NCBI RefSeq assembly: GCF_033472595.1
Contig: NZ_CP137642.1
Coordinates: 310,001 to 374,000 of the forward strand
Length of the DNA: 64,000 bases
Origin: Methanoculleus receptaculi
GTDB lineage: Archaea; Halobacteriota; Methanomicrobia; Methanomicrobiales; Methanoculleaceae
Direction: 5' to 3'
Positions 12,601-64,000 of the stretch are shown here, one piece after another. The translations under genes and the position numbers were made by a program. The stretch's first letter is position 1. Every line of letters starts with the position of its first letter. Below the pieces are notes generated by a model, which did no database searches, was not told the DNA's origin, and worked only from the letters and a program-made list of their open reading frames with translations.

Positions 12601-12812
12601 GGTATGGCCGCGGCCTCTGCCGCCTCTCCGCGTCTCACCCGGATACCCTATCTCCCTGGACGATGGACACCCACACCTCCATCCGTGCCGGGGTTCATCG
12701 AGCCTGGAGAGAGAGCCTGAATGAACCGGTTTGATGACCTGAGATGGCGCTGGCTGAGGGTAAGTTACTTACCCCTGCTGATCGCAACTACGAATCAAAT
12801 GGAGGAACCCGT

Positions 12813-13097
12813 GTGGTAGAGATGCAGTACGTGCCCGGTGACGACCACCACAAGGTGGTGCTCTACGCCCTGAGCACCTGTGGATGGTGCGCCCGAACAA
12901 AACAACTTCTCACCGACCTGGGTGTGGAGTTCTCCTACGTCTATGTTGACCTGCTAACAGGCGATGAACAGGGCACCGTGGTAAAGGAGGTCGAAAAGTG
13001 GAACCCCCGACTCTCGTTCCCGACAATCGTCATCGACGGCTCAAAGGTGATTGTGGGGTTCAGAGAAGAGGAGATCCGCAAGGCGGTGGGTGCTTGA
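12813..13097 (+). CDS. Glutaredoxin-family thiol oxidoreductase
   Basis: A 94-residue thioredoxin-fold protein with the redox motif CGWC (STCGWCARTK) in the first third. The cis-Pro loop is FPTIVIDG and the C-terminal helix reads GFREEEIRKAV. The longer frame from 12744 is less likely: GGAGG at 12801-12805 is seven bases before the GTG at 12813, which begins VVEMQYV. It lies one base upstream of an FTR-rubredoxin gene. The pair probably forms a cytoplasmic disulfide relay, with the neighbour supplying electrons to this glutaredoxin. That relay is inferred from context. Confidence 0.85.
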   Translation: MVEMQYVPGDDHHKVVLYALSTCGWCARTKQLLTDLGVEFSYVYVDLLTGDEQGTVVKEVEKWNPRLSFPTIVIDGSKVIVGFREEEIRKAVGA

Positions 13098-13098
13098 G

Positions 13099-13602
13099 AT
13101 GGTAAGCGATGAGGATGTTGACCGGCTCGTCCAGGACCTGGCGCGCGAGGCGGAGGCCGGGGGCTACCGCCTCAACCCTGACCGGGTGTTTACCCGGGCG
13201 CTTGTCCGCGGCCTGCTTTCAAACCGTGAGCGTTACGGCTATATCTCCTGTCCATGCCGGCTCGCTTCAGGAAACAGGGAAGATGACCTCGATATCATCT
13301 GCCCCTGCGACTACCGTGACCTGGATCTCACCGAATACGGCGCCTGCTACTGCGGCCTGTACGTCACCGCCGACGTGGAAGCGGGGGTGCGCACCGCCGC
13401 TCCCGTGCCGGAGCGCCGGCCATCGCCGGCAGAGCGCCGCCAGAAGAAGGAGGAGCGCCCCGGGACAGTCGGCGCACCTCGAGACCTGAAATACCCGGTA
13501 TGGCGGTGCCGGGTCTGCGGCTACCTCTGCGCAAGGGGCGAACCGCCTGATACATGTCCGATCTGCCGGGTCTCCCGTGACCGGTTCGAGCGGTTCGTGT
13601 GA
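13099..13602 (+). CDS. Ferredoxin:thioredoxin reductase catalytic subunit fused to rubredoxin
   Basis: The 167-residue protein has two parts. Residues about 1-100 are the FTR catalytic chain, with CPC (SCPCR), CPC (ICPCDY) and CYC (ACYCGLY) motifs that bind a 4Fe-4S cluster and an adjacent active disulfide. After a charged linker, the C-terminal 35 residues form a rubredoxin-like iron site: WRCRVCGY and later DTCPICRV. FTR reduces thioredoxin- or glutaredoxin-type disulfides with ferredoxin electrons. The start is ATG 13099, one base after the glutaredoxin stop. The rubredoxin tail could relay electrons. Plant FTR needs a second subunit; none is seen here. Confidence 0.85.
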   Translation: MVSDEDVDRLVQDLAREAEAGGYRLNPDRVFTRALVRGLLSNRERYGYISCPCRLASGNREDDLDIICPCDYRDLDLTEYGACYCGLYVTADVEAGVRTAAPVPERRPSPAERRQKKEERPGTVGAPRDLKYPVWRCRVCGYLCARGEPPDTCPICRVSRDRFERFV

Positions 13603-61013: not shown

Positions 61014-61220
61014 ACTATACCGTATTATCTTGCCTCACCATACAAAAGGTGATTGCCTATCCCTGCAAAACCAGCTTGAAGGAGGATGGGAGGCTGCAAG
61101 TCCACCGGCGTTCAGGATACCGGGTTTTGCCGTCCCACCAGCACTGCTCCGAAATGAATGATACCTGTTATAACACTCCAGAACGAACCTATAATGACCG
61201 AATGATCCGGGGGTATCATC

Positions 61221-61490
61221 ATTTCCAATACAACGCAATTCATCGTATATACACTGGAATCCTGCCCGAATTGCGAGATCCTGAAAGAGTTTCTGGCCTC
61301 GAGAGGCGTGCCCTTCATCGAGTGCGACATGGCATCCGCTGAAGCGCTGACCGAGCTTCGCATGAACGGGGTATTCGTTCAGGAGGCGCCGGTGCTGCAG
61401 AAAGGTGACGCTTTCTATACGTCAGCCGACCTATTTCCCGGGGGTGTCTTCCAGGAAGACCTGGTTGCCGGTCTGATCGCGGAGGTATGA
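61221..61490 (+). CDS. NrdH-like glutaredoxin, apparent ATT start
   Basis: An 89-residue glutaredoxin. TTQFIVYTLESCPNCEILKE contains the CPNC redox site near residue 14, and YTSADLFPGGVFQEDLVAGL ends the protein. No ATG, GTG or TTG precedes the redox motif after the in-frame TGA at 61203. The first usable codons are ATC/ATT at 61218-61223, with GGGGG at 61209-61213. I place the start at ATT 61221. It overlaps the nrdD start and so likely reduces this anaerobic ribonucleotide reductase. Confidence 0.75.
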   Translation: MSNTTQFIVYTLESCPNCEILKEFLASRGVPFIECDMASAEALTELRMNGVFVQEAPVLQKGDAFYTSADLFPGGVFQEDLVAGLIAEV

Positions 61491-64000
61491 GGTTGAGCCG
61501 TAAGTCAACACAGACGACGCTGTTCGGGGAGTTTGTCCCCACATTCCCGAAGGTCAGGACGTCGCGGGGCTACCTTCTTGACTGGGACAGGAACCGGATC
61601 ATCAGACAGATCGTGGAGGAGACCCGGCTTGTCGAGGTCTTCTACGGCTACAAGGGGGCCGATGAGGAGACGGCAAAGGAGATTGCCCGACTGGTCGAGA
61701 AGAAGATCCAGATGCTGGGACTCCAGTCGCTCTCAGGGCCGCTGATCCGCGAGATCGTCAACATGACGCTCCTTGAGCGCGGCCTGATCCCCTACCGCAA
61801 CGTCTGCACAAGGGTGGGAACCCCTGTTTTCGATGCTCACCTCATCGATGTAGGGCGGGGGTTTGAGGCGCACGACAACGCCAACCTCCAGGAGAATGCA
61901 GAGACCTCACACAAGAAGAAGGCTGACAAGATCAGCAAGGAGCAGTACCTCCTGCAACTCCCCCCCGACCTTGCGGACCACCACCTCCGGGGAGATCTCC
62001 ACATCCACGACCTGGAATACTTTGGGACCCGCCCGTTCTGTATAGACGGGAGCACGGTCATACCCGCGCGGATGGCGGGCCGCACCCGAAGCATCCGTCC
62101 CGACGAACTCCCGATCGACGGTGATGAATGGCGCCCGGATGACCTCTCCGTGCTCACCCCAAAGGGCTGGAGACGCGTTACGAAGGTGACCCGTCGCCGG
62201 GTGAACCCGGGCGAGATGCTCAGGATCCGGACGTCGGGCGGGCGGTCGCTGATGGTCACCGGCGAGCACCGGATCCCGGTGCAGACCGCCGAAGGGATGA
62301 CCATCCGCCGTGCCGACGAAGTACGCACCGGGGACACCCTCTACAGGATCTCCGCGACCGACGCCCTCCGCGGGGAGACGATCGAGGCGATCGATCTCGT
62401 GCGGGAACTGCCCGTCTCGGTGCCGGCCCACCTCCTCGAGAACGTCTACGTCCGCGGCGCTCAGGAGATCTTTGCCGATACGATCCGGAGCGGGCAGGCA
62501 GCTTCCTACGCCGCTATCTCGCGGGTGCTCGGCGTCGAGCACCGGAAACAGTGGTACACACGCGGAATCATGCCCATCGCACTCTTCAGCACGTTCTGCA
62601 GCCGTTACGGCGTCGAGGACTATGCCGGGGTCACAATCGGAGTCACCGGGAGCGAGCACGAGCTGCCCGCCCTTCTCGCGCTTACGCCTGAACTCATCCG
62701 TCTCCTGGGGTTCTTCGTCTCGGAAGGCAACTACAACGTCGCCCCGGAGGTCGGACAGTACAACCTCGCGATAACCGAGAACAATCAGGCGCCTGCGATC
62801 CAGGCCGCGGCATGCGCTGTCCTGAACACCTATGCAACGATCACCGGCGGCACCCCCGACACCACGACCATCTACGGGGTCGAGGCGGAGCGCAACCGGG
62901 CCCTGCAGGTCTACTTCGGCGGAAAAGCAGGTTACCTGCTCTTCCGCTACGTATTCGGCATCCCGGAGAGGGCAGTCGAAAAACGCCTTCCCTGGATCGT
63001 CTACCACTTAAACGATGTGCTCCTCCACGAGTTCCTCTCCGCCCTCTTCACCGCCGGCGGCTCGGTATACTACCGTCCTGAAAAGTCAGACTGCATCGTC
63101 AACTACACCACCGCATCGCCGACACTCCGACAGGAACTCTCGCTCCTCCTCACCGCACTCGGGATGAAACCCCACATCGTCGAACTCTACGCCGATAACG
63201 AGGACAGGGGGACGCTCTACCGCCTCCAGATCAACGGGCGCAAGAACGTCGAGGCGTTCGCCCGGTACGCCACGTTCCTTGACTCGCGGCAGGACCACAT
63301 CGACGGGTTCCTCTCCGCAGTGAAGGGAGGGCGGACTGCCGAGCGGGAGGAGACCGCCGTCGAGATCGCTCCGGCGGACCCCACCGGTGCGTACGTCTAC
63401 GATCTCTTCATCGACGGCGACGGGGCTGAGGAGAGCCACACGTTTTTCGCATCCGACGGCCTCTTAATCCACAACTGCCAGGACTGGGACCTGCGCTACT
63501 TCTTCTACTACGGTCTGATGCCTGATGGCAACGGTACAAAAGCCTCTGTTGCCGGCCCGGCAAAGAGGGCGGAGGTGGCGGTTCTCCACGCGGTCAAGGC
63601 GCTCGGCTCCGCCCAGACAAACTTCGCCGGCGGCCAGGGCTACTACAACTTCCTGACGTTCCTGGCGCCATACTTTGAGGGGATGGACTACGACGGGATC
63701 AAGCAGCTGATGCAGATGTTCGTCTACGAGATGACCCAGATGATGGTTGCCCGGGGCGGTCAGGTGGTCTTCTCGTCGGTCCAGCTCTCCCCCGGCGTTC
63801 CCACCCTCTGGAAGGACAAGCCCTGCGTCTTCCGCGGCAAGGTCTGGGACGGAAACCAGGCGCCGCTCCGGACATACGGCGAGTTCGAGCGTGAGGTCAG
63901 GCTCCTCTTCAAGGCGCTGATGGAGGTGATGCTCGAGGGTGACTACTGGGGCAAACCGTTCTCCTTCCCGAAACCCGAGATCAGCATCGAGCCCGATTTC
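61487..64000 (+). CDS. nrdD: Anaerobic ribonucleoside-triphosphate reductase with intein (partial at window end)
   Basis: Class III reductase making deoxyribonucleotides from NTPs by a glycyl radical. The N-extein has 184 residues and ends at DLHIHDLEYFGTRPF; the C-extein resumes CQDWDLRYFFYYGLMPDG and goes on with SAQTNFAGGQGYYNFLTFLA and SSVQLSPGVPTL. An intein (62039-63475) interrupts it. No ATP-cone is seen before residue 100. ATG 61487 overlaps the glutaredoxin stop; a TTG at 61493 has better spacing to GGAGG. The gene runs past the window, so the glycyl-radical motif is not seen. Confidence 0.92.
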   Translation, partial: MRLSRKSTQTTLFGEFVPTFPKVRTSRGYLLDWDRNRIIRQIVEETRLVEVFYGYKGADEETAKEIARLVEKKIQMLGLQSLSGPLIREIVNMTLLERGLIPYRNVCTRVGTPVFDAHLIDVGRGFEAHDNANLQENAETSHKKKADKISKEQYLLQLPPDLADHHLRGDLHIHDLEYFGTRPFCIDGSTVIPARMAGRTRSIRPDELPIDGDEWRPDDLSVLTPKGWRRVTKVTRRRVNPGEMLRIRTSGGRSLMVTGEHRIPVQTAEGMTIRRADEVRTGDTLYRISATDALRGETIEAIDLVRELPVSVPAHLLENVYVRGAQEIFADTIRSGQAASYAAISRVLGVEHRKQWYTRGIMPIALFSTFCSRYGVEDYAGVTIGVTGSEHELPALLALTPELIRLLGFFVSEGNYNVAPEVGQYNLAITENNQAPAIQAAACAVLNTYATITGGTPDTTTIYGVEAERNRALQVYFGGKAGYLLFRYVFGIPERAVEKRLPWIVYHLNDVLLHEFLSALFTAGGSVYYRPEKSDCIVNYTTASPTLRQELSLLLTALGMKPHIVELYADNEDRGTLYRLQINGRKNVEAFARYATFLDSRQDHIDGFLSAVKGGRTAEREETAVEIAPADPTGAYVYDLFIDGDGAEESHTFFASDGLLIHNCQDWDLRYFFYYGLMPDGNGTKASVAGPAKRAEVAVLHAVKALGSAQTNFAGGQGYYNFLTFLAPYFEGMDYDGIKQLMQMFVYEMTQMMVARGGQVVFSSVQLSPGVPTLWKDKPCVFRGKVWDGNQAPLRTYGEFEREVRLLFKALMEVMLEGDYWGKPFSFPKPEISIEPDF
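62039..63475 (+). other. Intein with LAGLIDADG-type endonuclease in NrdD
   Basis: A 479-residue in-frame insertion that splices out of the protein. Block A begins with Cys (CIDGSTVIPARM). Block B is LMVTGEHRIPVQT, with T-x-x-H. Two LAGLIDADG-like blocks, LIRLLGFFVSEGNY and FLSALFTAGGSVYY, are relaxed forms. Block F/G is AYVYDLFIDGDG and SHTFFASDGLLIHN, followed by Cys of the C-extein. All splice residues (Cys1, penultimate His, terminal Asn, Cys+1) are present, so it should splice. Endonuclease activity is uncertain: the usual acidic residues at the LAGLIDADG ends are a Glu and a Gly. Confidence 0.93.

Follow-up and report, generated by a model that had tools for sequence, protein, structure and literature searches.

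Methanoredoxin is reportedly reduced by ferredoxin-dependent disulfide reductase (FDR), an enzyme in which a tyrosine replaces the active-site histidine of ferredoxin-thioredoxin reductase (FTR). The Methanosarcina acetivorans structure that bears the title ferredoxin-dependent disulfide reductase (PDB 4tpu) joins an FTR catalytic domain and a rubredoxin domain in one chain, and in a Desulfotalea psychrophila protein (7pwe) a glutaredoxin and a ferredoxin disulfide reductase are fused. The FTR of plants and cyanobacteria (1dj7, 7bzk) shares the catalytic-chain fold and the six-cysteine pattern, but it has a separate variable chain and a CHC motif. The Methanoculleus receptaculi gene pair analyzed here is, by its sequence, of an already described kind: an FDR with a methanoredoxin-type partner, known from other methanogens. 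We consider it very probable that this FDR and its dedicated glutaredoxin form a ferredoxin-driven relay to protein disulfides, with clients that probably include the class III ribonucleotide reductase (RNR). The first-pass annotation had proposed that electrons pass from rubredoxin or ferredoxin to the glutaredoxin in a variant of the ferredoxin-thioredoxin system. That direction of electron flow fits our results, but the variant is not new, because it is the known FDR represented by 4tpu and 7pwe.

The gene pair and its products

The two genes lie on the plus strand of the window, the whole 64,000-nucleotide stretch that was analyzed, in a genome assembled as one contig of 1,980,381 bases (1.98 Mb). 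The glutaredoxin open reading frame (positions 12813 to 13097) encodes 94 amino acids with the active site TCGWC. It starts with GTG at 12813, 7 nucleotides after a GGAGG (12801 to 12805) that is a putative ribosome-binding site; an alternative ATG at 12822 is 16 nucleotides from the same element. A single base, 13098, separates this frame from the 167-residue fusion (13099 to 13602). The fusion comprises an FTR catalytic domain (residues 13 to 95, positions 13135 to 13383) with the motifs C51-P-C53, C68-P-C70, and C83-Y-C85, a linker (residues 96 to 134, positions 13384 to 13500) that is partly disordered in the predicted model, and a rubredoxin domain (residues 135 to 164, positions 13501 to 13590) with iron ligands C137, C140, C153, and C156. 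Thus, open reading frames and Pfam matches bear out the earlier description of an FTR catalytic chain fused to rubredoxin one base after a glutaredoxin gene.

Relatives of the fusion were collected with a genome-collection scan that returned at least 546, of which the best 80 were kept, a sample that leans to close relatives. A promoter-like element, AAGTTACTTACC (12762 to 12773, plus strand), lies about 40 nucleotides upstream of the glutaredoxin start, and its core, TACTTACC, is found upstream of the glutaredoxin gene in five of six other Methanoculleus-type loci compared (L011, L012, L014, L016, and L020, not L023). A sigma-70 scan of the locus yielded no site, and the sigma-70 consensus is uninformative for archaeal promoters. 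An operon with the flanking genes was rejected because the six neighbors tested were present in only 0 to 14 of the 80 best loci; all except one of the loci sharing them were of the Methanoculleus type (L011 to L023).

Sequence and predicted fold both place the fusion in the FDR family. Pfam matches were to PF02943, FeThRed_B (5.8e-22, residues 13 to 95), and to PF21349, rubredoxin-like (2.6e-14, residues 135 to 164), and 4tpu matched the protein at full length, over residues 3 to 167 (2.5e-57). In an AlphaFold model built from 30 sequences (mean pLDDT, 82.8; pTM, 0.62; residues 121 to 126 below a pLDDT of 50), 4tpu was the first structural match (4.1e-20) and 7pwe the next, with true FTR chains well behind. 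Full-length superposition on 4tpu gave a root mean square deviation of 17.4 Å and a TM score of 0.61, so the relative position that the model gives to the FTR and rubredoxin domains is unreliable. The protein and 4tpu have the same domain order, similar lengths, CPC/CPC/CYC motifs, and rubredoxin cysteines, with 51% identity in the fold alignment. The Methanoculleus linker, in contrast, is shorter and unlike that of 4tpu, and no functional difference was detected. Thus, the chain has the FTR catalytic and rubredoxin domains in that order, six FTR-type and four rubredoxin cysteines, and a tyrosine (Tyr84) at the FTR active-site histidine position. The comparison with 7pwe covers only FDR residues 6 to 109, the rubredoxin part being outside the match; both partners are present in the same order, but they are one chain in 7pwe and two genes here. 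The nearest FDR among the best 80 of at least 546 relatives, L011, is 87% identical.

The CPC-CPC-CxC pattern is common to FTR, and the protein might in principle be the catalytic subunit of a classical FTR with a variable chain that escaped notice at another locus, the rubredoxin being a side domain. This is very improbable. The first-pass annotation had seen no variable subunit, and a search of the one-contig 1.98-Mb genome with the variable-chain profile PF02941 likewise gave no match, with a positive Synechococcus control. In addition, residue 84, where an FTR has the active-site histidine of CHC, was tyrosine in 74 and phenylalanine in 7 of the 81 aligned FDRs and histidine in none, and the closest solved proteins are FDRs, with true FTR chains scoring far worse. 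Classical FTR was therefore rejected, and we continue to treat the protein as an FDR. In all, the genome encodes three FTR catalytic chains: the fusion and two that stand alone. One of the stand-alone chains (genome positions 1778019 to 1778234, L095) looks frameshifted near its N terminus, by assembly error or decay.

The glutaredoxin matched PF00462 (1.4e-12), and its best solved matches, over residues 5 to 93, were 3nzn (6.2e-31) and 5cax (1.3e-30), both titled Glutaredoxin, which we take to be methanoredoxin-type glutaredoxins. The glutaredoxin half of 7pwe matched at 2.8e-16, and outside 7pwe the next structure was 3ic4 (8.5e-13), so that 5cax and 3nzn are the closest structures to this dithiol glutaredoxin. 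It shares the LSTCxWCxxTKxLLTDLGV region with both but has CGWC where they have CVWC. An identity as NrdH was rejected: the protein scored 22.7 bits against the NrdH model TIGR02194 (cutoff, 85.75), and its gene is about 48 kb from nrdD rather than in an nrd operon.

Conservation and pairing

The FDR alignment (n = 81) consists of the best 80 of at least 546 relatives and the window sequence. The first-pass annotation had asked whether the fusion is unique to this genome and whether its cysteines vary in relatives. It is not unique, and the cysteines are constant except at one position in two sequences. Cysteines 51, 53, 68, 70, and 83 and the rubredoxin cysteines 137, 140, 153, and 156 are present in 81 of 81 FDRs, and an additional Cys144 is present in 74. 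Cys85 is a cysteine in 79 FDRs and a TGA codon in two.

The TGA codons are at the last active-site cysteine codon of FDR genes from two Dehalococcoidia metagenome-assembled genomes (MAGs) (L065:6250-6252 and L066:4616-4618). The tRNA-Sec matches of these genomes scored 70.5 and 69 bits against a cutoff of 47, which was exceeded in 24 of 37 genomes searched. Hairpins with an AGGUC loop 3' of the TGA had z scores of -2.30 and -1.63, compared with +0.74 and -1.12 for the cysteine-type control loci L028 and L071. On this sequence evidence, the TGA is a probable selenocysteine codon. Selenocysteine in FtrB-type proteins (CxU) is already tabulated in an earlier study (PMC9312934), and NCBIfam includes an FtrB double-selenoprotein model.

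A glutaredoxin open reading frame directly precedes the FDR gene in 77 of these 80 loci. Adjacency was similar for loci labeled archaeal (42 of 44) and bacterial (35 of 36). In two exceptions (L036 and L067) the glutaredoxin gene is about 0.6 to 1 kb upstream of the FDR gene; in the third (L031) the contig starts just before it. Within the order Methanomicrobiales, 149 of 150 genomes matched the FDR profile in some way, and 113 had a one-piece full-length FDR (best E value below 1e-50), the remaining matches being mostly stand-alone FTR chains. A glutaredoxin gene adjoined the FDR gene, on the same strand with no more than 66 bases between matches, in all of the 113 except G090. These frequencies, 77 of the 80 best-kept loci and 112 of 113 genomes of the order, demonstrate that the adjacency is not due to chance. 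Open reading frames of more than 250 amino acids without the motif, which the iterated glutaredoxin profile also drew in, were left out of the counts. The aligned glutaredoxins were preselected by their TCxWC motif, which makes any conservation of those cysteines circular, and none is claimed.

The adjacency, together with the natural fusion in 7pwe, makes the neighboring glutaredoxin the most likely first acceptor of electrons from the FDR, by analogy with that protein. Another possibility is that the glutaredoxin is reduced by the thiol of coenzyme M (CoM-SH), that the FDR serves other redoxins, and that adjacency reflects a shared stress regulon instead of electron transfer between the two proteins. 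According to two reviews, the methanoredoxin of M. acetivorans used CoM-SH as the reductant in an insulin disulfide assay (PMC7278568), and a thioredoxin from the same organism is a substrate of FDR (PMC6262447). The use of CoM-SH means that FDR need not be the sole reductant of methanoredoxin. However, the glutaredoxin and the FDR are one polypeptide in 7pwe, and the pair is just as constant in the loci labeled bacterial. To our knowledge, bacteria as a rule do not carry out coenzyme M methanogenesis. We therefore regard the explanation based on coenzyme M as improbable and retain the glutaredoxin as the probable first acceptor.

The distance matrices of FDR and glutaredoxin were correlated (r = 0.67 for 80 rows, the window included), and they remained so when L011 to L023 and the window were removed (r = 0.52 for 66 rows); none of 2,000 permutations gave so high a correlation. 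This agreement is not proof of contact because the co-inheritance of neighbors would give the same result. In the FDR tree, archaeal and bacterial labels are mixed, with 12 label changes, 2 of which are forced by well-supported branches. As far as the sequences indicate, the pair may have been exchanged between archaea and bacteria, though mislabeled MAGs add noise. The FDR sequences of a MAG with a Firmicutes name (L081) and of a Euryarchaeota MAG next to Methanofastidiosum (L037) differ very little (branch lengths, 0.011 and 0.026), and L081 is, judged from this likeness, probably a mislabeled archaeal MAG.

The genome also encodes a glutaredoxin-thioredoxin reductase fusion (genome positions 165457 to 166635; L093:1458-2636) downstream of, and co-oriented with, a rubrerythrin gene. 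This is a separate redoxin system, probably driven by pyridine nucleotide.

Class III RNR as a possible client

A gene for an intein-interrupted class III RNR, NrdD, starts at 61487 on the plus strand and runs beyond the end of the window at 64000 to genome position 376523. It matched PF13597 (4.2e-123), TIGR02487 (over the cutoff), and intein domains. The stop codon of a small redoxin reading frame (61206 to 61490, plus strand; active site, ESCPNC) overlaps the NrdD ATG at 61487. This redoxin, detected as a PF00462 match at genome positions 371242 to 371355, is NrdH-like by position; it scored 22.1 bits against the NrdH model (cutoff, 85.75), and no in-frame ATG, GTG, or TTG precedes the active site in 61206 to 61490. 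It may be a second client of the FDR.

The main NrdD frame (genome positions 371487 to 376523) matches PF13597 only to position 510. The zinc- and glycyl-radical-bearing C terminus (RVTGY) is a separate 120-amino-acid frame at genome positions 282246 to 282608 (L092:1247-1609), about 89 kb away, and from these sequences NrdD appears to be split into two open reading frames. Most of the main NrdD matches listed for the order end at 510 to 516. At least three genomes of the order (G016, G044, and G047) have separate NrdD C-terminal frames of 126 to 131 amino acids, and G001 has a full-length NrdD copy as well. No description of a split NrdD was found in the available portions of the literature considered.

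In a sample of the phylum (n = 294), NrdD was present in 77 of 78 genomes with an FDR, the exception being G328, versus 114 of 216 genomes without one (Fisher's exact test, P of about 2e-16, with kinship ignored). In M. barkeri, FDR reportedly delivers electrons to the class III RNR. The co-occurrence makes it plausible that this RNR is one client of the relay. A stronger reading, in which the glutaredoxin-FDR pair of this lineage mainly serves to reduce NrdD as a dedicated reductant, could draw on the same findings and on genus g20. NrdD is present in 126 of the 150 genomes of the order, that is, in 126 of 126 outside g20 and in none of the 24 genomes sampled from it. These 24 small genomes (e.g., G042 and G054) also have no full-length FDR and no strong match to the glutaredoxin profile, and 23 of the 24 keep a PF02867 class I/II-type RNR large chain. 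Weak glutaredoxin matches (about 1e-8 to 1e-10) occurred in eight of them, and the six with listed positions are in open reading frames of 405 to 444 amino acids that resemble the glutaredoxin-thioredoxin reductase fusion of M. receptaculi. The absence of the pair and of NrdD in g20 may represent a single evolutionary loss.

Several observations make the stronger reading doubtful. In the genomes of 50 of the 80 FDR loci, some of which may be incomplete, NrdD was found in 28 (in 27 over the cutoff); of the 22 without it, 19 are labeled bacterial and 3 archaeal. On this basis, FDR as the exclusive reductant of class III RNR was rejected. Conversely, 13 of the 126 NrdD genomes of the order do not have a one-piece FDR, one of which (G055) has an FDR split over two contigs. 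Furthermore, nrdD in M. receptaculi is about 48 kb from the pair and has a small redoxin of its own, and a PF02867 chain also occurs in 135 of the 150 genomes of the order, which means that NrdD is rarely the only RNR. Four of the 13 genomes, which are 74 to 91% complete (G087, G091, G110, and G127), have NrdD with no full-length FDR, glutaredoxin match, or PF02867 chain. From this gene content, NrdD seems to run there without the glutaredoxin-FDR pair; if that is real, NrdD uses another reductant in these organisms.

A more speculative and rather unlikely scenario is that Methanomicrobiales keep the pair chiefly for an unusual two-polypeptide class III RNR, an NrdD body and a separate glycyl-radical and zinc protein, with which it would be lost together. 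Elsewhere, the pair would have been recruited to other clients, including those of the probable selenocysteine forms in Dehalococcoidia. The reading that we prefer remains that of a more general relay to protein disulfides, with class III RNR as one probable client.

Proposed electron relay

The proposed electron path, cluster, donor, and clients are modeled on characterized relatives and on FTR. Reduced ferredoxin would donate electrons one at a time to the iron of the C-terminal rubredoxin domain, which would thereby stand in for the absent variable chain. The rubredoxin would pass the electrons to a [4Fe-4S] cluster on Cys51, Cys68, Cys70, and Cys83, which by homology with FTR are presumably the ligands, as Cys53 and Cys85 presumably form the active disulfide. 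With two such electrons, the cluster would open the Cys53-Cys85 disulfide, and the FDR would then reduce the CGWC disulfide of the neighboring glutaredoxin. The glutaredoxin would transfer the reducing power to protein disulfides. Its clients probably include class III RNR, either directly or through the NrdH-like redoxin encoded beside nrdD, and there would be others too.

The FDR gene is nearly always directly behind a gene for the same kind of glutaredoxin, in loci labeled archaeal as well as bacterial (77 of the best 80 of at least 546 relatives). Given this constant pairing, the glutaredoxin is the substrate of FDR to consider first, and the co-occurrence with NrdD suggests that class III RNR is one client of the system rather than a universal one. 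The M. receptaculi locus thus adds a further methanogen gene pair to the FDR system; it is not a new kind of system.
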